Of a DNA stretch of 64,000 bases, positions 2,893 to 15,112 are shown one piece after another. This DNA is from Candidatus Sulfopaludibacter sp. GTDB lineage: Bacteria > Acidobacteriota > Terriglobia > Bryobacterales > Bryobacteraceae. Position 1 is the stretch's first letter. Each line of letters starts with the position of its first letter. Location: positions 62,001-126,000 of the forward strand of contig JARLGM010000002.1 in assembly GCA_031292755.1 (NCBI GenBank), written 5' to 3'. Both the position numbers and the translations under genes were made by a program. Under the pieces are notes generated by a model, which did not search any database, had not been told where the DNA came from, and saw only the letters and a list, made by a program, of their open reading frames with translations.

Positions 2893-3334
2893 ATGCCGAT
2901 TTCGAGGCGAGACTTGCTGGAAAAGAGCGCGGGCGCCGCGGCACGGAATGCCGGACCGCGGAGCGACCGGCCCAACGTGCTCTACGTGATTCTCGAGGAC
3001 GCCGGCTTCAACGTCGGCGGCTACGGCGAGCTGCTCGTCCGCACGCCGAACATCGACCGCCTCGCATCGCAGGGCGTGGCCTTCGATCACGCATTTTGCG
3101 CCGCGCCGGTGTGCTCAGCCAGCCGCTCTGGCCTGATGACCGGGCGCTACCAGAACAACATCGGCGCGCACAATCACCGCACGCCCGCGGGATTGCGCGC
3201 CGGCACGATGTCGATCCCGCTCACGAAGCGGCTGTCCACCCAAGTACCGCGAGGAACTGAAGCGGTTACGTGCACTGGTGGACTGCTCCGTGGACGAGAA
3301 CGACAAGCTGGTGGCGTTCGAAGGGCTACTATAA
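2893..3334 (+). pseudogene. Type I sulfatase remnant with a large internal deletion
   Basis: The first 110 or so codons are a good sulfatase N-terminus: a Tat-like start (SRRDLLEKSAGAAA), the PNVLYVILEDAG metal-binding stretch, and the formylglycine region VCSASRSGLMTGRY. In place of C-x-P-S-R the core reads C-S-A-S-R, as in some sulfamidase-like members. At about 3236 the sequence jumps, one frame over, to a typical sulfatase C-terminus (KYREELKRLRALVD) that ends at TAA 3332-3334. A full-length enzyme is normally 450-550 residues, so about three quarters of the gene is missing. The frame from 2893 runs on to 3432 as nonsense. Not expected to be active. The tail overlaps the 3' end of the convergent TSUP gene. 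Confidence 0.85.
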
Positions 3335-4213
3335 GCACTTGCCCGAAAATCCAGCAGGGTAGCGAGCCGAGCGCAGCATCAATACTGCCGCGTAGAGCAC
3401 CACGACCGTCACCAGGTAACGCAGCGCCGTGAGGGGCAGCGATTTCACCACGAATGCCGCCAGCGGCACCCCCAACAGTCCGCCGGCTGCCAACCCCGCG
3501 GCCACCGGGACGAAGTAGGCGCGCCTCCACACGAAACGCGAGCCGGCTACCGGCATCAGGAACGCGGCCGAACCCATCATGATGGGGAACGCCGTGGCCG
3601 GATTCATCCCCAGCAGGCTCACCAGTGTCATGCAGGGAGCGTAGAACCCGATTCCGAGTGTGCTGATAGCCGCGAACAGAAAGTTACACACCACGCCGAC
3701 GGCCAGCCGCCAGCCCTGGAGCCCGATCGCCGCACCGCCCGCCGGGAAAAGTGACAACTGGCTCATGAGCATGGCGGTGACGGCGACCAGCAGCGCGAAT
3801 CCCATGCCGAGTTGCACGGAGCGCCGTGAAAGACGCGCCACCAGCCCCGCGCCGAACCATGCGCCCGTCACCGCGCCCGCGATCATCAGCACCAGCGTGG
3901 TGGCGTCCACCTCGATAGCAGCCATATAGATGAACGCCTGAAACATCACCGGCAGCGTGTGGCCAGTGTTGAGCGTGCCGGGAATCAATTCGTCCGGAAC
4001 CATGTTCCAGAACTTGAAAATCGAAGTGCTGGTGGCGAAGGACCCGATTCCCAGTGTGTCCAGAAAATTGGTGCCGAACCCGGTGGCGATGTGGGCTGCG
4101 GAAGGCAAGGGGGCGCCTTCCCGCCGGGCGCGGGCGAGTCCATTCAGAAAGACGGCCAGGTAGAAGATTGCGAATGCGGCCAGCGCCAGAAGCAGAATGA
4201 GTTTCGCGGACAT
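3329..4213 (-). CDS. TSUP (TauE/SafE) family membrane permease
   Basis: 294 residues, almost entirely hydrophobic, with about eight predicted membrane segments, starting with LILLLALAAFAIFYLAVF. The duplicated TauE/SafE layout is recognisable: an ATGFGTNFLDTLGIGS motif in the first half and a GxNPATAFPIMMGSAAF motif in the second. The family exports or imports small organic and sulfur anions such as sulfite or sulfoacetate; the substrate here is unknown. The ATG at 4213 (MSAKLILL) was preferred over in-frame upstream codons because those encode a charged tail overlapping the upstream gene. It follows the enolase-superfamily gene by 10 bases on the same strand and probably shares its transcript, which suggests transport of a related organic acid. 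Confidence 0.88.
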   Translation of the reverse strand: MSAKLILLLALAAFAIFYLAVFLNGLARARREGAPLPSAAHIATGFGTNFLDTLGIGSFATSTSIFKFWNMVPDELIPGTLNTGHTLPVMFQAFIYMAAIEVDATTLVLMIAGAVTGAWFGAGLVARLSRRSVQLGMGFALLVAVTAMLMSQLSLFPAGGAAIGLQGWRLAVGVVCNFLFAAISTLGIGFYAPCMTLVSLLGMNPATAFPIMMGSAAFLMPVAGSRFVWRRAYFVPVAAGLAAGGLLGVPLAAFVVKSLPLTALRYLVTVVVLYAAVLMLRSARYPAGFSGKCL

Positions 4214-4223
4214 GGGTTTCGCG

Positions 4224-5333
4224 TCAGACCTTGCCGATGCGAAGAACCGGCTCGCCCAACACGTCCGTCCGCGGCTGAATGCCGAGTCCCGGCGCGCTGG
4301 AGGCGGCCAGGCGTCCGTCGACGCGCTGCGGCGCGCCTTCGGCAATGCTCACGGTCACGTAGCTGTTGAAGTCGGTGGCGGTGAAGAGAAATTCGGGCTG
4401 CGTGCTGTGCGCCAGGTGGGCGATGGCCGCCGTGATGATGTCGCCGCCCCAGGTGTCCTCGATCGTCATGGCGATGCCGAGCGAAACGCACAGGTCGCGG
4501 ATCTGGCGCGCCTTGCTCAATCCGCCCACTTTGGAGATCTTGAGGTTGATGACGTCCATGGCCCGGTCGGCATAGCCGCGGAGCACCATGTGGACATCGT
4601 CGATGACTTCATCGAGCACGAACGGGCGATTGGTGTGCTGCCGCACCGCGAGGCACTCTTCGTAGTGCATGCAGGGCTGCTCAATGTAGACGTCCACGTT
4701 GCGGACCGCATCGGCCACCCGCAGCGCCTGGTGTTGTGTCCAACCGGTGTTGGCATCGGCAATCAGCACGTCGCCGGTTTGCAGCTTGGCGGCGGCGGCG
4801 TGAATGCGCGCGATATCGGTGTCGGGGTTGCCGCCCACCTTGAGTTGGAACCTGGTGTAGCCTTGTGAGCGGTAGAGGCCCACGTGTTCCGCCATGGCCT
4901 CCGGCGTGTCCTGGGAGATGGCACGGTAGAGCGGGAAATCGTCGCCGTAGCGCCCGCCGAGCAGCACCGCGACAGACTGGCCGCTAGCCTTGCCCAGCAG
5001 GTCCCAGCACGCCATATCGATCGCAGACTTCACGTAGGGGTGTCCGCGCAACGCCTGATCCATGCGGCGGTTCATCACCTGAAGCTGCGTGGGATCGAGC
5101 CCCAGCAATTGCGGTCCGATCTCGGCGATCCCCGTGCGTGCGCCCGCGGCATACGCCGCCAGATACGCCGGTCCGAGAGGGCAGATCTCGCCGTAGCCGG
5201 TAATCCCGGCATCGGTGTGGATGGCCACCACGGTCGAATCGAACACCTCCACCGAATTGCCGCCCGACCATTTGTAGCTCCCCTCGCGTAGAGGCAGCTC
5301 AACTCGATAGGCGCTGATGCCGTTGATCCGCAT
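4224..5333 (-). CDS. Enolase-superfamily (mandelate racemase/muconate lactonizing type) dehydratase or racemase
   Basis: 369 residues with an N-terminal capping domain and a C-terminal TIM barrel. Metal ligands can be placed at D193 (ADANTGW), E218 (YIEQP) and D241 (VLDEV). A general-base lysine lies on strand 2 at K165 (RFQLKVGG), and K265/K268 lie on strand 6 (NLKISKVGG). The EDTWGGD stretch near 292-298 resembles cis-3-hydroxy-L-proline dehydratases and hydroxyproline-betaine epimerases, but this assignment is tentative. The ATG at 5333 is chosen because the [14 protein letters not shown] start matches the family; the open frame upstream is spurious. It sits between a Gfo/Idh/MocA oxidoreductase gene (103-base gap) and a TSUP permease (10-base gap), consistent with a small catabolic operon. 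Confidence 0.9.
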
Positions 5334-5436
5334 ATGTGTCCAATTAGTATGCTTCAGTTCGGTTGGGAATGCCTCGCCGAAACTTCGCGAACCGCCGATG
5401 GATGCCCCTTCCGCAATTGCCAGTGCCCCGTCCCCT

Positions 5437-6759
5437 TCAAACGGTGATCGACCAAGGCTTGCGCATCGGACGTGCCAGCATCTGACTGGCGGATTCGTCG
5501 CCGATGATTTGCTCCTTGGCCGGATCCCAACGGAGGTCGCGGCCGAGGCGGAGGCTGATGTTGCCCAGGTGAGCAATCGTGATCGAACGGTGCGCTTGTT
5601 CAATCGGCGCGGCGGTTTCCTTGCGGGAGATGACGCAGTCGATGAAATTCCGGGCGTGGTTGTCGCTCCGGTAGAGGTGGATGTCTTGCTCTTTGGGTTG
5701 CCAGTCGAGGAGGGATTGGGGAGTCGCTTCGATGGCTCCCCGGTTGACCCAGACACTGCCATCCGAGCCCTGGAACGTGACGCCGCTGCGAAGGCGGCTG
5801 GAGACAGTCATGACTACTCCACTGGCGTAGTGCGCTTCGAAGTAATAATCGACGGCGGTGTTCCAGATCTTTTCCTTGGCCCACTGGGCCTGGCCGTTGC
5901 GGATGGCGACGGGGCCTGTGAGTTCAGTGCCCATGCCCCATTGCGCGATGTCGGGATGATGACCTCCCCAGTCTGTGATTTGGCCGCCGGAATAGTCGAG
6001 AATCCAGCGGAAGTTGACGTGGCAGCGTGCGGGCGCGTAGGGAGCTTCAGGGGCGGGGCCGAGCCACATCGCGTAGTTGAAGCCTTCGGGCACGGGCTCG
6101 GGATCCTGGCGATCGCGGCTGTGACCGAAGTCGGGCGTGCCACCGGGGAGTCCCACCAGGACGGTTTCGAGCTTGCCGATGCCGCCGTTGCGGACGATCT
6201 CGCAGGCCTTGCGGAAGCGCACGTCGGATCGTTGCTGGCTGCCGCACTGGAAGACACGATTGTTCGCCTTGACGGCGCTGGCCATGGCGCGCCCTTCGGA
6301 GATGGTCAGCGAGAGGGGTTTCTCGCCATAGATATCCTTGCCCGCGCGGGCAGCTTGGATGACGGGGATGGAATGCCAGTGATCGGGCACCGCGATGAGG
6401 ACAGTGTCGATGTCCTTGCGCGCGAGCAGGTCCCGGAAGTCCTCATAGGCGGTGCAACCTTTGTAGATGCCGGAGCGCTTGGCGCGAGCATAGTTCCATT
6501 CGACGAGGACGCGGGCCGGTTCGCGTCCGGCGATGGCGCCGTCCCAGTAGCCCGGCGATTCCTTGTTAAGGTCGCACACAGCTACAACCTGGACACGCTC
6601 GTCGGCGAGGAAATTCTTCATGTCGCCGGTGCCTTGGTTGCCGGTACCGATGACGCCCATGGTAATGCGGTTGGACGGGGACGGGCGGTTTTGGGCGCGT
6701 GCCGCGGCAGTGGCCGAGGCGAAGGCAGCGCTGGATTTGAGGAAGTCGCGGCGGAGCAT
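5437..6759 (-). CDS. Gfo/Idh/MocA family NAD(P)-dependent oxidoreductase, Tat-exported type
   Basis: 440 residues. The N-terminus ([22 protein letters not shown]) has a twin-arginine motif, hydrophobic core and Ala cleavage site. The Rossmann fold follows ([12 protein letters not shown]), then the family's EKPLS motif near residue 145. The [13 protein letters not shown] segment near residue 275 supplies the conserved active-site histidines. The family oxidises or reduces sugars, inositols and glycosides; the exported subgroup is expanded in Acidobacteriota and Planctomycetota and its substrates are mostly unknown. It is probably the first gene of a leftward unit with the enolase-superfamily and TSUP genes. 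No clear Shine-Dalgarno sequence precedes the ATG at 6759. Confidence 0.92.
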
Positions 6760-6923
6760 AGTCGGTTCGTAATCGTATCACACCGCGGCACCGCGTCTGC
6801 TCTCTCGGATGCTAAAGTCCAACACCGCCTTGCCGATCCTCCCGGTTCCCGATATGGACCGATGGCCATCGTACGGGGGCGGCGGAGAGGGGACGGCGAC
6901 GACGCACCACTCAGATCCCGTAG

Positions 6924-7384
6924 GCCTCCGCCGATCCGGTCCTTGATCCGCGGCTTGGCCACATGGTCCAGGATGAGGGTCTGGTTGGGATGCCGGTCCA
7001 CGAACTGGATCGCCGCCGGCAGGTGGCGTGCGAAGGCCAGGATGTCGTAGCGCCGTCCGCACGGGCGCAGTTTCCTGTCGCCGGCGAACCGCTCCAGGTG
7101 CTTCATCACGGCCGCGCCCCCGATCAACGGCACCCGCCCCCCACCACGCCGCGGATCAGCGGGCGCCGGGCGGACAGGCCCCGCAGCCACGAGGCTTCCT
7201 CCAAAGTCTGGCGGGTCTGTACCGCCACTGTGCCCTCGATACCGACGTAGTGCATCAGCTCTTCCAAGTGCTCCGGCAGGAAATCGCGCTTGTTGGCGCC
7301 CATCTCCGGCCTGATCCAGCCGTACTCGGCGGCACTATACTTCCACAAGTGGCGATCGGCATCGTCGAAGGCCAGGATGGCACT
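6924..7384 (-). pseudogene. Amidohydrolase (fuconolactonase-like TIM-barrel) remnant in two frames
   Basis: Read leftward, frame one (about 7384-7130) gives [13 protein letters not shown], then an EGTVAVQTRQTLEEASWL stretch and LIRGVVG. This is the N-terminus of the amidohydrolase-2 family that includes L-fuconolactonase and L-rhamnonolactonase. The frame then shifts; 7133-6924 reads LERFAGDRKLR followed directly by YDILAFARHLPAAIQ and LILDHVAKPRIKD. In intact family members about 40 residues, including the VQDEPD region, lie between those two pieces, and a further 90 or so residues with the last metal ligand follow. There is therefore one frameshift, one internal deletion and a lost C-terminus. 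The 164 bases between this remnant and the oxidoreductase start (6760-6923) hold nothing I recognise. Confidence 0.75.
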
Positions 7385-7399
7385 TTACGCCAGCAGCCG

Positions 7400-7722
7400 G
7401 TCCACCACGTGCCGCGAATCTCTTCGAGCGTGGGCGGCAGGCCGGTGAGATCGAACGTAGCGCGCCGGATCAGCGTACGCTTGTCCGCCGCTGGCGCCGG
7501 CGCCAGTCCCTCTGGCACCATCGCTGGCCCACGCGCTCAACCCCTGAGCATCCCTTCGCGCGTGTCCAGTCGCAGTCCGCCCATCGGCGAGGAGTGGCGC
7601 GCCAGGCACTGCCGCGCGAGCACCGGCCGCACTTTCGTCTCGAAAAAGTCCGCGCCTCCTTGGCCGGCTTTCAGGTCTACGCAAACGGCCCGCAATCCGG
7701 CCCAAATGAGTTTCATCCGCAT
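7400..7722 (-). pseudogene. Planctomycete-type cytochrome c / DUF1549 protein remnant
   Basis: From ATG 7722 the frame encodes a PSCyt1-type beginning: FFETKVRPVLARQC, then GGLRLDTREGMLRG, ending at a stop at 7537. The heme motif expected as C-x-x-C-H reads CLARH, so the second cysteine is lost. About 7521-7414 carries the DUF1549 signature [20 protein letters not shown] followed by LEEI. A further frame change gives VVDRLLA and a stop near 7385. Intact PSD1-type proteins are 700-1100 residues, so most of the gene, including all DUF1553, is gone. The amidohydrolase remnant abuts immediately downstream. These outer-membrane or periplasmic proteins often accompany sulfatase and DUF1501 genes, which fits the neighbourhood. 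Confidence 0.75.
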
Positions 7723-7913
7723 CCCTTCACCGCTAAACACAGCTTCTGGCAGTATGCAATAGCGCGCTTTATGCCCGCTCGGACATGAGTTGGCCAAGCG
7801 GTTCGGAGTACGCGAGCTCATCCTGAAAAGTGGGCTACTTTCTCTCCTCCCCGGTGGTCTGGTTTTGTCCCGCGCCTTGACAGGCAACTCTCCAAGAAGC
7901 TAAGAAGGAAGCC

Positions 7914-10900
7914 ATGAGGGATGATCCGCATCCCCCTGGAGGCCCCAGCTTGAATCGCCGAGATTTTTGTTTGAACCTGGCCGCTATCCCAGCCGCTATG
8001 GCCATGCAGCCGGCGTCGCCCGCCACGCCGGCAATCTGGGAGCGAACGGCCAAGATCCGATTTGTGCTCCAGGACCTCCTGGACCACCCTTTCTACTGGT
8101 GGCCCACCACCCTGCTCACCTACCCGATCGAGTTCCGCCAGCCCATTGAACTCGAGCGCCTGGTGCTGACGCGCACGGACACAGGCGAGACGGTTCCCAT
8201 TCAGTTTTCCGATGTGGTCCGCGATGCATCCGGCCTTCGCGCCGCCACCCTGAGTTTCCTCTCGGATCTGCCCGGCGGCGCACGCCGCGAGTTCGTCCTC
8301 TCCGCCGGCGACTCTCCAGCGGTCCATCCTCCCCAGGTGAAGGAACTCCAGGAAGGTAGCACGATCGTCCTCGATACGGGCGTAATGCGCGTTCGCATTC
8401 CCGCCACGCAATCGGTCCTCGGCGCCGCTCCGGGCCCCATCATCCAGGTGTCGCGCGGCGCGGCATGGGTGGGCTCTTCCACGCTCTCATTCAGCGACGG
8501 GAAGGTAACCCGCATCACCAGCCGGCGCGTGGCCCAGGGACCGCTGTACCTTGCCTACGAGATCACGTATGAAAGCGCCGGCGGCTCCCGCTACGTGGCG
8601 CGGATCCAGTGTGAAGCCGGATTCGACTTTGTCCGCCTCCAGGAAGATATGGAAGGGCTGCGGCCCGGTGTGCAGGGCACGTTCACGTCCACATGGTTGG
8701 GCTTCGACGTGACCCATCGCCAGGCAGCCAATCATCCTGTGCCCCTGGTTCCCACCATCGGAGATTACGACAACTACAAGTGGGAGAAGATCGACGAAGC
8801 CTGGCGGGGCCACGACATCATCATGGGTTCGAGCCGGCCGGTGTACTTCGAAACCCCGCCCAAAGGCGAGCTGCCCTTCTGCCTCGGCATTTTTCAATCC
8901 TGGCCGGCGTATCACGTATCCACCAGCGCCAACTTCTGGGATCAGCGATCCGGCGACGCGCTCGGCGTGTTCATCGATAAGACTGCCGGCTGGCAGGATC
9001 ATGAGTATGCCTATGAGGTTGGATCGACGCTCTTGCAGGTCCGCTTCCATTACCAGGATCATCGCTTCTTCTGGCGCTGGCCGTTGTGCCGCGGCCGGCG
9101 CTCCACCTGCGTGTCGTTTTACGATCACGAAAAAGATAAGCGCGCCATGCACGAGTTTGAGCGCGCCGCGGAGAGCGTGACCTACCGCGGACTCAGCTAC
9201 CAGGTGGGCCGCGCCTTCACTTCCCATACGAACTTTCTGCAAAACCGCTACGGCACGCTCGATCTCAACGCGGTGAAGAACTGGGCGCTGGAGTATCCGA
9301 AGGACGGGCGTCAGCCCCCGGTGATTCTGTCCATTGGAGTGATTCACGATCCAGCGGAGTTGGAGCGCATGGTCATGACCTCCGGCTACGTCAACACGCT
9401 GCCGATCTTCGGCACGCGCGAGAACGGAGGCAGCGGTCCCATTCCGGGCCGCAACATTGTCAACTTCAGCCCGGTCCCCAGCCGGCAGATCGAGGGCGCG
9501 TGGGTGGGCGGCTTCAATTCCAGCCGGGCCTCGATGGACGAACGGCAGCGCAGGCGGCTGACGGCCATGTACCTGTTTCTCGCCTACGTCCACATGGGCG
9601 ACGATTATATGCCAATCGTTCCCATGCTCGCCGGCCATCCCAATTTCCTGGCCGACGTGAAGTCGGCCGTGGCCGTCATGCCGTTTCTCTTTCCCGACCA
9701 CCCCATGGCGGCGGCTTGGGCCGACCATTGGCAGAAATGCTTCGAGCTCAACACCCGCTTTAATATCCGGCCCGCCGTGAACACCTGGGATGCGCTCGGC
9801 GGGCGGTGGACCGAAAATCTGGGCACTTACGTGTGGGCGTTCCTAAAACCCTCGTTGCGGGCGGCATTCCTGCTGCGCCAGTTCGACGGAGTCGAGCGCA
9901 TGCTCTCGCCGCAGCTTGCCCTGCTGGCCGGCTGGCTCGTCAACGCCCTTTCCGCTCCATTCGACGGAGAAACAGAAGAGGGTTTCCGCGTTCTGACCAA
10001 GTTCGATGGAGGCAGGGACTGGGGCGTGGTCGCGCCGGGCAAGGGACCGCGCCGCGTCTACCCGCCCCAAGGCGCTCACTCCGAACGGCGCATGACGCCT
10101 TCGTCGCTGTGGCATCTCGGCCGGTCTCTGCAGCGCTACGCACCGCTTGCCGCCGAGTACGCCATGTGGGCCTCCCGCCCCACGGATCTGGATTCCGAAA
10201 CCGGACCGGACGCCCCCAAGACATGGGAAAAGCTGGAAAACGTGCCCGATAACACCGGCACCGATCCGCACCTGAGCAGCGCGAAAATGACTGGTTACGG
10301 CATCGTCCTGCGGGCAGCGGCCGGCACACCCGAAGAGCTCTCCATCCATTTGCAGCAGATTGACGAGAGCCCCAACTACCGCTGGGGCCGGGCCGGGGAA
10401 GGCGGCTGCGGCGTGCTCTACTTTTTCGCTGCCGGCAAGGCCTACAGCAACAATGGTCCGGAAGACACGGGGGACAGAATCGATCAGGACACGGATTTCT
10501 GCACCACCTTCGGTGTCTTCAAAGAAGGAAGGTTCCGCGCAGTCGGCATGAACGTCCTCTCGCGTCCCCTCTACGACCTCGGCACGGGCCAGTTCGCCGA
10601 ACTCGTGCCGCGCGGAGGAGCCGCGGCTTACGCGGCGCCGGAGTATGTGAGCCGCAGCGTGCTGCTGGCCGGGCAGGAGTATTTCGTGCTGTACGACCAG
10701 GTGCTGGATTCGACCATTCATCACCGCCTCTCCTGGTTCGTGCGCCGCGGCGAGGAACTGCCCGTGATTCAGCGGTTGCGCGGCGCGGAACGCGGCGGCT
10801 TTGAGGCACAACGCACCGCCGTGGAGACGGATACCAACCATGGCGCGTGGTTCGACGGGGTGGGCGATTCCATGGCCGTCGTCAGCCACCGCAAGGAAGT

Positions 10901-12026
10901 GGAGGCTCAGGCCACAGCCTTCGGCTGCCGTGTCCGCTTCACGGGCGGCCAGGATCTCATTTTCCGCAATCCCGAGCCGGTCCATTTTGCCGAAGGCGGG
11001 AATGTGTTCGACGGGACGGCGGGTTTCATCCGAACCACGAAGGACAAGACCGAGTTCGCCCTGTTTCATGGAACCCGGATCGGCGCGCAGGAAATCGTCT
11101 GCAGCACCCAGGATACGGAGCTGGGAATCGGCGGGGCCATCGTCCCCGGTCAGGCGCCGCGTGGCGTGTACTACGCGCCGAAGCCATCGCCGGTCAGAGT
11201 AGCCGGCCAGGCTCTCACTGGCGAAACCGTCTTCTACATTGACGGCCAGGCCCGCACCGCAAGGCGCGAAGCTGGCGCTCTCGTGATCGACCTTGACCAG
11301 GGGCGCCACCATTGGGAGCTGACGGATCGCCTGCCGGTTCCCATTGCTCCTCGTATCCTGAGAACCGAGAGCCGGGCCGGCGGTGGGCGCGTCCTCGTTG
11401 CGCCCGTTGCCTCGGCAACGCAATACCGGCTGGAGTTGAGCGAGGATGCGGGACGAACCTGGTCTTCCGTGCACGCGCAATCGGAGCCGTCCATCGATAT
11501 CGGCGGATTGCAGGATGGGCGGAAGGTTCACGTGCGGGCCGTGGCGCTGAACGCGCAGCACGAAAGCAACCCCGGTCCGGAGTACCCGCTCTACGTCACC
11601 AGCCAGCCTCCGCTGCCGCCGGACGGACTCCATGTGGATCTGGCCCAGGGCGCAGCCACCGTTAGTTGGGGAGAGGTCCTCGGTGTGGCCGAGTACCGGC
11701 TGTATGCGCGAGCCAAAGGAGCCAAGGAATTCACGCTTCTCCATCGCGGACCCGACCGCCTGTACGTGGATCGACGCCCCGGCATTCAACCTTGCCATCC
11801 CATTCCCGGCAACAGCGCCGGAGCCTCACTCGCGGACATCGTGCAATACGCCGTCACGTGCGTGAACGGCAACGGCGAAGGCGCCCGCTCCCGCACCGCG
11901 GACTCCGATCCCGCCTCCTGGCGAAACTGGGACCCGAAGCCGGGCGAGCCTTTCCGAAGGCTCTACAGTTCCGCGCCCATCTACCCGCCATCGGCCGGCC
12001 TGTGGCCTCGATACTACCCGGACTGA
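7914..12026 (+). CDS. Very large Tat-exported multidomain protein, probable polysaccharide-lyase-like enzyme with fibronectin-like tail
   Basis: 1370 residues. A twin-arginine signal (NRRDFCLNLAAIPAAMA) begins near residue 13. Residues about 45-210 are a beta-rich domain with an LPGGARREFVLSAG ending, reminiscent of the N-terminal barrel of exo-rhamnogalacturonan-lyase-like (YetA/PcRGLX) proteins. Residues about 220-480 look beta-sandwich-like. Residues about 540-720 are helical with an ALGGRWTENLGTYVWAFL segment as in alpha/alpha-toroid lyases. Residues about 800-1120 form a long beta region like the heparinase II/III C-terminal sandwich. Two fibronectin-III-like repeats close the protein (about 1135-1230 and 1230-1320). 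Start supported by AAGGA at 7905-7909. Domain borders are estimates and the substrate is unknown; it is a single-gene unit convergent with xfp. Confidence 0.7.
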   Translation: MRDDPHPPGGPSLNRRDFCLNLAAIPAAMAMQPASPATPAIWERTAKIRFVLQDLLDHPFYWWPTTLLTYPIEFRQPIELERLVLTRTDTGETVPIQFSDVVRDASGLRAATLSFLSDLPGGARREFVLSAGDSPAVHPPQVKELQEGSTIVLDTGVMRVRIPATQSVLGAAPGPIIQVSRGAAWVGSSTLSFSDGKVTRITSRRVAQGPLYLAYEITYESAGGSRYVARIQCEAGFDFVRLQEDMEGLRPGVQGTFTSTWLGFDVTHRQAANHPVPLVPTIGDYDNYKWEKIDEAWRGHDIIMGSSRPVYFETPPKGELPFCLGIFQSWPAYHVSTSANFWDQRSGDALGVFIDKTAGWQDHEYAYEVGSTLLQVRFHYQDHRFFWRWPLCRGRRSTCVSFYDHEKDKRAMHEFERAAESVTYRGLSYQVGRAFTSHTNFLQNRYGTLDLNAVKNWALEYPKDGRQPPVILSIGVIHDPAELERMVMTSGYVNTLPIFGTRENGGSGPIPGRNIVNFSPVPSRQIEGAWVGGFNSSRASMDERQRRRLTAMYLFLAYVHMGDDYMPIVPMLAGHPNFLADVKSAVAVMPFLFPDHPMAAAWADHWQKCFELNTRFNIRPAVNTWDALGGRWTENLGTYVWAFLKPSLRAAFLLRQFDGVERMLSPQLALLAGWLVNALSAPFDGETEEGFRVLTKFDGGRDWGVVAPGKGPRRVYPPQGAHSERRMTPSSLWHLGRSLQRYAPLAAEYAMWASRPTDLDSETGPDAPKTWEKLENVPDNTGTDPHLSSAKMTGYGIVLRAAAGTPEELSIHLQQIDESPNYRWGRAGEGGCGVLYFFAAGKAYSNNGPEDTGDRIDQDTDFCTTFGVFKEGRFRAVGMNVLSRPLYDLGTGQFAELVPRGGAAAYAAPEYVSRSVLLAGQEYFVLYDQVLDSTIHHRLSWFVRRGEELPVIQRLRGAERGGFEAQRTAVETDTNHGAWFDGVGDSMAVVSHRKEVEAQATAFGCRVRFTGGQDLIFRNPEPVHFAEGGNVFDGTAGFIRTTKDKTEFALFHGTRIGAQEIVCSTQDTELGIGGAIVPGQAPRGVYYAPKPSPVRVAGQALTGETVFYIDGQARTARREAGALVIDLDQGRHHWELTDRLPVPIAPRILRTESRAGGGRVLVAPVASATQYRLELSEDAGRTWSSVHAQSEPSIDIGGLQDGRKVHVRAVALNAQHESNPGPEYPLYVTSQPPLPPDGLHVDLAQGAATVSWGEVLGVAEYRLYARAKGAKEFTLLHRGPDRLYVDRRPGIQPCHPIPGNSAGASLADIVQYAVTCVNGNGEGARSRTADSDPASWRNWDPKPGEPFRRLYSSAPIYPPSAGLWPRYYPD

Positions 12027-12142: not shown

Positions 12143-12208
12143 CTATTCCGCGACCAGCGCCTTCGCGGTATCTATGAGCCGTTGGGCGTTTATTTGGAAG
12201 CGCTCCAT
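12143..12208 (-). pseudogene. N-terminal stub of a class I fructose-bisphosphate aldolase
   Basis: A 21-codon frame starts at ATG 12208, inside the last codons of xfp, and stops at TAG 12143-12145. Its peptide contains LIDTAKALVAE, which matches the N-terminal helix of class I fructose-bisphosphate aldolases (typically followed by a GxLAxDES motif that is absent here). An aldolase gene directly after phosphoketolase would make metabolic sense. Nothing recognisable follows in 12027-12142, so the rest of the gene has been lost. The match is short, so this remains a suggestion. Confidence 0.4.
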
Positions 12209-14637
12209 TTCCAGTTACGGATTTCCGGCAAGTCTTCACCGTGCTTATCGATATAAACCTTGTGCTCGATGAGCTTGTCCTGCATCTTCTGCTTCAGATA
12301 GGCCCCTTTGGAGCCTAAATGCGGCAGCCGATCGATCACGTCCTGCACCAGGTGGAACCGGTCCAGATCGTTCTGCACCCTGATATCGAAAGCCGTGGTG
12401 ATGGTGCCCTCTTCCTTGTAACCCCGAACGTGCAGGTTGCGATTGGTCCGGCGGTAGGTCAGACGGTGTACCAGCCATGGATACCCATGGAAGGCAAAAA
12501 TGATGTGCTTGTCTTTGGTGAAGAGCGAATCGTAGTTCGTGTCGCTCAGTCCGTGCGGGTGCTCGGTACTCGACTGCAGCTTCATCAAATCGACGACATT
12601 GACGACCCGGATCTTCAGTTTTGGGAGATGCTCGCGAAGAATGGAAACGGCGGCGAGAATCTCCAGAGTGGGTGTGTCTCCGCAGCAAGCCATCACCACG
12701 TCCGGCTCGCCCTCCTGGTCATTGCTGGCCCATTGCCAGATACCAATGCCTTCCGTACAGTGCACCACCGCGGCGTCCATGGTCAGCCACTGTGGAAGAG
12801 CGTGTTTGCCGGCAACCACTACATTGACGTAATGCCGGCTGCGCAGGCAGTGATCGAAGACCGAGAGCAGACAATTGGCGTCTGGCGGCAAGTAGACGCG
12901 GACGATGTCCGCCTTCTTGTTGATCACGTGATCGAGGAAGCCTGGGTCCTGGTGGGTGAAGCCGTTATGATCCTGCTGCCAGACGTGGGAGGCCAGCAGA
13001 TAGTTCAGCGACGCGATCTTGCGGCGCCAAGGCAGTTCCAACGTTACCTTGAGCCACTTGGCGTGCTGGCTGAACATGGAGTCGACGATGCGAATAAAGG
13101 CCTCATAGCTGTTGAACAGCCCGTGACGCCCGGTCAGCAGATAGCCTTCCAACCAGCCTTCACACTGGTGCTCGCTCAGCATCGAGTCCACCACGCGCCC
13201 GGCGGGCGCGAGGAATTCGTCATTCTTCACTGTCCGCGCTTCCCACTGGCGGTTGGTGACTTCAAAGACAGCGCCCAGCAGATTCGAGACGGTCTCATCG
13301 GGACCGAAGACGCGGAAGTTCCGCTCCTCCTGATTCAGCCTGGTCACGTCACGCAGGAAATTGCCCAGTACGAGCGTGTCCTGGGCGTCCACGGCGCCGG
13401 GAGATGGCACAGCTACAGCATGGGCGTGGAAGTCCGGCATGCGCAGATCGCGCAGGAGAACGCCGCCGTTGGCGTGCAGATTGGCTCCCATCCGCCGGTT
13501 GCCCTTTGGCGCCAGTTCGGCCAATTCCGGCATGAGGCGTCCGCTCTTATCGAACAGTTCCTCGGCTTTGTAGCTCTTCATCCAGCTTTCCAGATCCTTG
13601 ACATGGTCTGGGTGCTGGGAATCGACCAGGACCGGCACCTGGTGAGCTCGGAAAGTGCCCTCGATTTGCAGACCGTCGATTACTTTCGGTCCCGTCCAAC
13701 CCTTGGGTGATCGCAGCACGATCATCGGCCATCGCGGTCGGGTGGTATCGTTGTTCTTCCGTGCGTTGTGCTGGATTTCGTGGATTCGCTCAATAGCGGT
13801 TTCCAAGGTCGCTGCCATGAGTTGGTGCATCGTTTCTGGTTCATCGCCTTCCACAAAATACGGGTCCCATCCGCAACCGCGGAAGAATTGCTCCAGTTCT
13901 TCATGCTCGATGCGCGACAGAACTGTGGGATTGCTGATCTTGTAGCCGTTGAGGTGCAGGATGGGAAGCACGGCTCCATCGGTGATGGGGTCGAGGAACT
14001 TGGTCGACTGCCATGCGGTCGCCAACGGGCCGGTTTCCGCTTCCCCGTCGCCGACGACGCAGGCGACGATCAGGCCGGGATTATCGAATGCCGCCCCGAA
14101 AGCATGGCTTACCGAATATCCCAGTTCGCCGCCTTCGTGGATCGAACCGGGCGTGGTCGGCGCCACGTGGCTGGAAATCCCACCGGGGAAAGAGAACTGT
14201 GTGAACAATTTCTTCATTCCAGCCTCGTCTTGAGTGACGTTTGGGTAGACGTCGGTCCAGGTGCCTTCGAGATAGACGTTGCCGACAATCGCCGGGCCGC
14301 CGTGGCCGGGGCCGGCGATGTAGAACATGTCCAGGTCATACTTCGTTATGATCCGGTTCAAGTGCACGTAGATGAAGTTTTGGCCCGGCGTGGTGCCCCA
14401 ATGCCCGACCACCAGAGGCTTCACGTGAGACAGTTTCAGCGGCTCTTTCAACAGTGGGTTGTCGTAGAGATAGATCTGACCGGCTGACAGATAGTTTGCG
14501 GCGCGCCAATAGGCGTTCATCTTGTGGAGAAGGTCCGGTGTGAGCGTGTTGGTTTTTGTCGATAGTTCCTTGGCATCGATTGCGTCGGGCTTTTTGCGAG
14601 ACGGTTCAGGAGTCAGGGTCTGTGTGTGTGTTTTCAT
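12190..14637 (-). CDS. xfp: Xylulose-5-phosphate/fructose-6-phosphate phosphoketolase
   Basis: 815 residues, close to the family's usual 790-830. It cleaves xylulose 5-phosphate (and usually fructose 6-phosphate) with phosphate to acetyl phosphate plus a triose or tetrose phosphate, using thiamine diphosphate. Visible signatures are [15 protein letters not shown] near residue 125, the thiamine-diphosphate motif [14 protein letters not shown] near 210, and the conserved [10 protein letters not shown] segment near 560. The ATG at 14637 is preceded by AGGTG at good spacing. The frame stays open upstream to 14934, but that part encodes a copper-ATPase fragment and is not phosphoketolase. It looks intact while every neighbour in its operon (rpiB, ackA, the ATPase, an aldolase stub) is broken, so the acetyl phosphate it makes has no local acetate kinase. 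Confidence 0.96.
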
Positions 14638-14676
14638 ATTTGCACCTAAAGTCACAACTTTATATTTCGTAGCCGC

Positions 14677-15112
14677 AACCACCGCGCCATCGACGGGCAC
14701 TTTGGCGCCTGGAACCATGCGCAGCCAATCGCCGGCTCTCACTTGGTCGAGGGCGACTTCATGATCGCCTCCCGGTGCGACTTGCCGCGCGGTGGCCGGA
14801 GCGAGGGTCAGCAGCGCTTTGATAGCGCTGCCCGTGCGGCTGCGCGCACGGAGTTCGAGCACTTGACCGAGGAGCACCAGCACAACGACCACCGCCGCTG
14901 ATTCGAAATTGCAGCCAGCGTGACGAGTTGCCACCCACCCAGGGCTGCCTGGCCAGTGCCGGGATCAGGTGGACCATCGCCAGGACAAACACCGGTAACG
15001 CCAACGCGGCGCCGAACCAGAAGCGTTGCGTCATGTCGCGGAGTTCCGCGTTCTCATCGTCATTCGTACCCGCAGTCGCCGTCTTCGGCTCCAGCGTCAT
15101 GCCGCATTTGGG
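14677..15112 (-). pseudogene. Copper-type P1B ATPase remnant, two pieces
   Basis: Piece one (15112-14906) reads KCGMTLEP, then AELRDMTQRFWFGAALALPVF and SRWLQF: the metal-binding CGM segment and first membrane helix of CopA/CopB-type ATPases. Piece two (14907-14677), in another frame, reads [20 protein letters not shown], then [13 protein letters not shown] and [13 protein letters not shown], the A-domain region. The normal helices between them (roughly 60-70 residues) are missing, and the junction lies at 14906/14907 within ATTTC. The protein stops before the TGES motif, and the phosphorylation DKTGT and ATP-binding domains are absent. It cannot function as a pump. Piece one is fused in frame to the acetate kinase remnant upstream; piece two is in frame with xfp downstream. 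Confidence 0.85.

Follow-up and report, generated by a model that had tools for sequence, protein, structure and literature searches.

The gene and its domains

The 64,000-nucleotide stretch of Candidatus Sulfopaludibacter sp. DNA analysed here (GenBank assembly GCA_031292755.1, contig JARLGM010000002.1, positions 62,001 to 126,000; hereafter the window, whose coordinates are used throughout) contains a gene for a large, predicted exported protein, represented by an uninterrupted forward-strand open reading frame (ORF) of 1370 codons at 7914-12026. The stretch AAGAAGGAAGCC lies just upstream of the ATG at 7914, and the motif LNRRDFC lies downstream of it. The nearest homologue (L002) exhibits 87% identity across all 1370 codons, and the differences between the two genes are dominated by the third codon position (0.090, 0.053 and 0.266 for positions 1, 2 and 3, respectively). 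The full-length homologue and the third-position bias identify the ORF as a real gene, and the distribution of differences over codon positions indicates purifying selection; the gene is intact and under purifying selection, and it is present in a single copy in its own genome. Its features are as follows (all on the + strand):

7914..12026, +, complete gene, 1370 aa, GC content at third codon positions 0.78 (ORF reading and codon comparison)
7914..8015, +, signal region with the twin-arginine motif LNRRDFC, R15-R16 at 7956-7961 (sequence; common to the nearest relatives)
8052..8318, +, N-terminal beta-barrel-like domain (residues ~47-135), homologous to the N-terminus of polysaccharide lyase (PL) family PL26, PcRGLX (model; hhalign 95.6%, E 1.2e-8)
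8319..9125, +, large beta-sandwich (residues ~136-404), the first half of which aligns with PL26 (model, fold search, hhalign)
9129..10172, +, alpha/alpha-toroid-like helical domain (residues ~406-753; model, fold search)
10281..11324, +, C-terminal lyase-type beta-sandwich (residues ~790-1137; model, fold search, profile comparison)
11355..11597, +, fibronectin type III (FN3) domain 1 (residues ~1148-1228; model and fold match)
11610..11903, +, FN3 domain 2 (residues ~1233-1330; model and fold match)
11904..12023, +, conserved C-terminal tail, DPASWRNWDPKPGEPFRR...RYYP (alignment; last 25 residues of low model confidence)

A previous examination of the DNA without database searches (hereafter the sequence-only reading) had described a giant protein with a twin-arginine translocation (Tat) signal, and such a signal is indeed recognizable: LNRRDFC occupies residues 13-19, with the two arginines at 15-16, in a plausible n-region, so that the protein is probably exported via the Tat route. 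The twin-arginine motif is retained in the nearest relatives, which come from Acidobacteriota and Verrucomicrobiota, but not in all members of the family, the more distant of which exhibit Sec-like leaders in its place; judging from these N-termini, export seems to be conserved across the family, while its route does not.

The AlphaFold2 model of residues 47-1140, built with a 24-sequence alignment (A2), was obtained with a mean predicted local distance difference test score (pLDDT) of 85.6 and a predicted template modelling (TM) score of 0.83, and comprises an all-beta N-terminal part (~47-404), a mainly helical domain (~406-753) and a second all-beta domain (~790-1137). For residues 1136-1370, a second model (pLDDT 86.1) gave tandem FN3 structures as its fold matches (E ~1e-10). 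The order of domains proposed by the sequence-only reading, i.e. a beta barrel-like N-terminus (all-beta in the model over residues 48-404), an alpha/alpha-toroid-like centre, a long beta-sandwich and two fibronectin-like repeats (~1148-1330), is thereby recovered. The C-terminal tail DPASWRNWDPKPGEPFRR...RYYP, which that description did not include, is strongly conserved despite the low-confidence prediction of its last 25 residues, and may be a sorting or docking element.

The Foldseek search of the PDB identified the PL39 alginate lyase Dp0100 as the best template for the longer model (E 3.6e-12, TM-score normalised by target 0.51-0.55), followed by the PL26 exo-rhamnogalacturonan lyase (E 1e-8), PL8 xanthan lyase, PL12 heparinase III and PL15, with PL17 at a lower rank, in agreement with the lyase-like architecture suggested earlier; members of the glycoside hydrolase (GH) family GH38 also match the model over a part of its length. 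Normalisation by query gives the lyases modest TM-scores of 0.20-0.40, as would be expected if the complete arrangement occurs in no one solved protein. The predicted model exhibits the alpha/alpha toroid followed by an antiparallel beta-sandwich that defines the superfamily of PL8, PL12, PL15, PL17, PL21, PL35, PL39 and PL40. Among viral proteins, the fold search of BFVD returned only weak matches, some of them to ODV-E66 proteins.

Family membership and homology to known lyases

The protein has no match in Pfam or NCBIfam even at an E-value of 10, and no characterised family matches its full length, as the sequence-only reading had anticipated. The main recurring signal in Pfam searches with 16 family members was a weak fn3 match, found in five of them. 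The Pfam relationships regarded earlier as worth checking did not appear: the heparinase II/III models (PF16889 and PF07940) match none of the 16 members at an E-value of 1, with PF16889 reaching a sub-threshold score only in two distant relatives, and PF19501, the N-terminal domain of PL26, has no match in the window protein at an E-value of 10, so that the relationship to PL26 emerges solely from profile-profile comparison. A match to a PHROG 'major tail protein' and another to titin are accounted for by the FN3 domains.

Full-length relatives were found in Acidobacteriota, Verrucomicrobiota, Armatimonadota and one metagenome-assembled genome of Flammeovirgaceae; the family alignment and the tree comprise 24 sequences from these four phyla, and the FN3-only matches seen in many genomes were not counted as members. 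The distribution is patchy, with a long match in 8 of the 237 genomes searched from the window's own taxonomic family and in 5 of the 388 sampled genomes of the Verrucomicrobia phylum. No relatives were found on viral contigs or on plasmids. The maximum-likelihood tree places the window gene in a fully supported clade of 10, which includes genes from Acidobacteriaceae, Verrucomicrobia and, in one case, Armatimonadetes, while copies from other genera of the window's own family fall outside it; this placement points to gene transfer between phyla.

The link to known lyases was made through divergent proteins from the Verrucomicrobia phylum, six of which were aligned for hhalign, while an alignment of seven rows (A3) was used for the comparison with the PDB. 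These proteins match the family profile at the N-terminal domain and then at the toroid, in this order, and the comparison of the six with the family extends over 885 columns (hhalign 100%, E 1e-57). The A3 profile in turn identified PL12 heparinase III (1.8e-14), PL39 Dp0100 (1.4e-8) and PL15 (1.9e-5). Independently, PL26 proteins that PF19501 retrieved from related genomes match residues ~79-249 of the family (95.6%, E 1.2e-8), and the divergent set alone also matches them (94.7%, E 6e-8). On the basis of these profile comparisons the N-terminus is homologous to PL26, and the toroid and sandwich are homologous, via the distant Verrucomicrobia relatives, to PL12, PL39 and PL15; from the two independent profile bridges we conclude that a PL26-type N-terminus is joined to a PL12/PL39-type core.

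PcRGLX (PDB 5XQG), the PL26 representative with the PF19501 domain, thus shares with the window protein its N-terminal beta domains, in keeping with the resemblance to rhamnogalacturonan lyases noticed earlier, and stands second among the matching fold families; however, the detected homology ends at about residue 249, and PL26 is not known to possess a counterpart of the lyase-type sandwich located after the toroid in the window protein. PL12 heparinase III (PDB 4MMI and 5JMD) is the closest match of the intermediate relatives, with both the Tyr and the His regions aligned, but differs from the window family in its N-terminal domains, in the spacing of the active-site residues and in its base His.

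Active site and proposed activity

The active site of the toroid-lyase superfamily comprises an Asn that neutralises the substrate, a Tyr that acts as the acid and a His that acts as the base (PMC12088678); in PL39 and PL40 this His is activated by an Asp and by a second, metal-bound His (PMC12915356). The base His resides in the first loop of the sandwich (His405 in PL39, His424 in PL12, His401 in PL35), and all toroid families tabulated in PMC12088678, as well as PL40 in PMC12915356, use a His in acid/base catalysis. The corresponding segments of the window protein are the following:

9636..9644, +, H575-P576-N577, with N577 (24/24) at the position of the carboxylate-neutralising Asn and H575 in 21/24 (alignment; roles from PMC12088678)
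9768..9806, +, segment bounded by invariant R619 and R631, RPxVxxWxAxGGR, in which the family-specific insert lies (alignment)
9828..9830, +, Y639 (24/24), at the position of the general-acid Tyr of PL12, PL39 and PL35 (alignment)
10074..10079, +, A721-H722; where some relatives have the Asp of a 'GDH' motif, a probable equivalent of Asp288 in PL39, the family has Ala in 23/24 and Ser in 1/24 (alignment)
10374..10388, +, N821-Y822-R823-W824-G825 (24/24), within the loop that in lyases harbours the base His and the metal His (alignment)

N577 and Y639 are invariant not only in the 24 family members but also in all six divergent relatives, and by position they correspond to the putative neutraliser Asn and general-acid Tyr. 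Their spacing is 54 residues in the divergent relatives (N594 and Y648 in A3), the same as between N240 and Y294 in PL12, and 62 in the window family, which carries an insert of about 8 residues beside invariant R619. In PL40 ulvan lyase Uly1040, which likewise combines a toroid with a sandwich, the spacing between Asn245 and Tyr305 is 60 (PMC12915356), close to that in the window family, but neither its His485, Asp358 and His487 nor its Mn site is conserved in the window family. Similarly, PL39 Dp0100 (PDB 6JP4 and 6JPN) shares the toroid followed by a sandwich and the Asn and Tyr positions, while its tetrad of base His405, Asp288 and His407 with Mn (PMC12915356) is missing, and the window protein possesses in addition the PL26-like N-terminus and the FN3 pair. 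Like many polar residues around the presumed cleft, R619 and R631 are invariant in all 24 sequences. As judged by Pfam and NCBIfam, the family is uncharacterised; it spans several phyla, is lyase-like and has a remodelled active site, and on balance we favour an exported, lyase-like multi-domain enzyme with a remodelled base, whose substrate would be an acidic (uronate-containing) polymer. The record names of the relatives indicate that the substrate is probably an acidic polysaccharide of freshwater, soil or peat.

In such an enzyme the polymer would be held in the cleft formed by the toroid and the C-terminal sandwich, in the manner of PL12 and PL39. To judge from positional conservation, N577 would neutralise the uronate carboxylate at subsite +1 and the leaving glycosidic oxygen would receive its proton from Y639, while abstraction of the C5 proton, normally carried out by His405 (PL39) or His424 (PL12), could not run in the same way. 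The base may be supplied by the invariant NYRWG loop, most simply by R823 or Y822, or else Y639 may serve as both base and acid. The loop of one divergent relative (L110, GGYRYHRTEGS) looks intermediate and would put R823 at the base position, but because the placement of gaps is uncertain here, Y822 or another residue of the loop is also possible. H812 and H575 were considered as substitute bases and are not preferred, since each is conserved in just 21 of the 24 sequences, although H575 is a possible replacement base in the main clade. An anionic substrate would suit the invariant R619, R631 and R823. Accessory roles, as a wall of the cleft, in spacing or in binding, are probable for the PL26-type N-terminus and for the two FN3 domains.

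Several observations weigh against this assignment. None of the 24 members possesses a conserved base His within residues 813-834 (the sole stray His, in L009, precedes NYRWG), the metal-site His (HxH) of the PL39/PL40 tetrad is absent from the family alignment, and the 'GDH' motif has become GAH with the loss of its Asp; since all three are lost, the known mechanism is not intact. Most of the divergent relatives do carry a His motif (AHHHQDD, AHHHNDE, SHFHEVE, SHHIANQ), and the 'GDH' Asp is present in L110, L111 and L112. Moreover, no solved lyase was reached either by phmmer or by the family profile search of the PDB, so that the link to lyases requires intermediate sequences. Finally, the neighbours of the gene in the window, an M1 peptidase, cis-3-hydroxy-L-proline dehydratase, a Gfo/Idh oxidoreductase and a phosphoketolase, neither suggest a substrate nor form a polysaccharide locus.

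The idea of a new lyase group, raised by the sequence-only reading, therefore survives in part: it is made plausible by the Asn and Tyr retained throughout the family, and weakened by the loss, in all members examined, of the base His along with the residues that assist it. It may be, and we propose this only tentatively, that the family constitutes a new PL family with a non-histidine base (the Arg or Tyr of NYRWG, or one Tyr serving as base as well as acid) and with a PL26-type N-terminus attached to a PL12/PL39-type core. Or perhaps the lyase scaffold has been retained for a different chemistry, that of a hydrolase, hydratase or dehydratase, with the base and metal residues lost in the switch from beta-elimination? 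The concerted replacement of the base His, the metal-site His and the 'GDH' Asp, together with the appearance of a new invariant loop and an insert, would agree with such a switch, but we consider it unlikely, as the elimination pair N577/Y639 is kept without exception in the family and in the His-retaining relatives, and no acidic residue pair of the hydrolase type was identified.

Somewhat less likely still is an ordinary member of a named CAZy lyase family not yet covered by Pfam or NCBIfam: recent PL families may be without Pfam models, but the family profile matches no solved lyase and the toroid families mentioned above all depend on a His. A non-catalytic or scavenging pseudo-lyase, displayed outside the cell for carbohydrate binding, would explain why the canonical base is missing in all members and would suit the FN3 and multiple beta-domains; it is improbable, as conservation this strict around the presumed cleft in four phyla points more to an enzyme. 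Human dermatan sulfate epimerase 1 (DS-epi1), too, relies on His residues plus a Tyr, and the equivalent of its sandwich His is lost in the window family. Although DS-epi1 is described in PMC8006597 as remarkably similar to bacterial proteins, a uronyl C5-epimerase instead of a lyase is highly improbable, as degradation agrees better with a bacterial enzyme that is secreted and, in the relatives, encoded next to degradative genes.

The polymers cleaved by toroid lyases are alginate, ulvan and glycosaminoglycans, and a Tyr-His pair is believed to underlie this chemistry. The present family, large and spread across phyla, has retained the Tyr and the Asn but not the His, and thereby offers a clean test of how this pair can be replaced; it also unites PL26-type and PL12/PL39-type modules in a single protein.

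Genomic neighbourhood

The neighbourhoods of the relatives favour polysaccharide breakdown, but are heterogeneous. TonB-dependent receptors lie near the family gene at 9 loci, GDSL esterases at L003, L009 and L101, a GH38 mannosidase at L003, and GH42 and GH3 enzymes at L106, while the L009 locus comprises a GH29 fucosidase, GH141 and acetyl esterases. In the window itself, a sugar-acid catabolic locus (MR_MLE, Gfo/Idh and a lactonase-like fragment) was considered and dropped, because the MR_MLE gene encodes the dehydratase listed below and gene fragments abound in the surroundings:

4224-5762, -, cis-3-hydroxy-L-proline dehydratase (NCBIfam equivalog above cut-off, E 1.7e-188)

The patch of broken genes just upstream of the family gene (2893-3432, + strand, and 6600-7900, - strand) includes the truncated N-terminus of a sulfatase and, as judged by eye, pieces of an amidohydrolase and of a planctomycete-type cytochrome c. 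At its start, the phosphoketolase ORF (12190-14934, - strand) seems, by eye, to carry part of a P-type metal ATPase fused in frame, which may reflect a rearrangement or a join in the assembly.

Two sets of unnamed proteins were noticed near the relatives. Three mutually related proteins of 730-960 aa with no Pfam match (L103:11972-14155, L104:6268-8502 and L105:5050-7917, all on the - strand) adjoin divergent family members, and their motifs (DENSGNYSSLG, PEWGDDYF and GDHA/GSHAH) suggest another toroid-lyase family. Two proteins of 630-650 aa near family members (L003:13694-15580, + strand, and L101:4658-6595, - strand) exhibit the motifs WTENHQILSHG and AGPHSRAYS, which resemble those of toroid enzymes; neither has a Pfam match, and the one from L003 has no match in the PDB either.

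Elsewhere in the same genome (G000:C31:13000-19623), a true PL26 protein (L093) and a heparinase-like protein (L113) are encoded less than 7 kb apart. The latter showed no similarity to the window protein when compared as a possible relative; it matches PDB 8R6Z at 1e-116, and the pair likely represents a separate polysaccharide locus.

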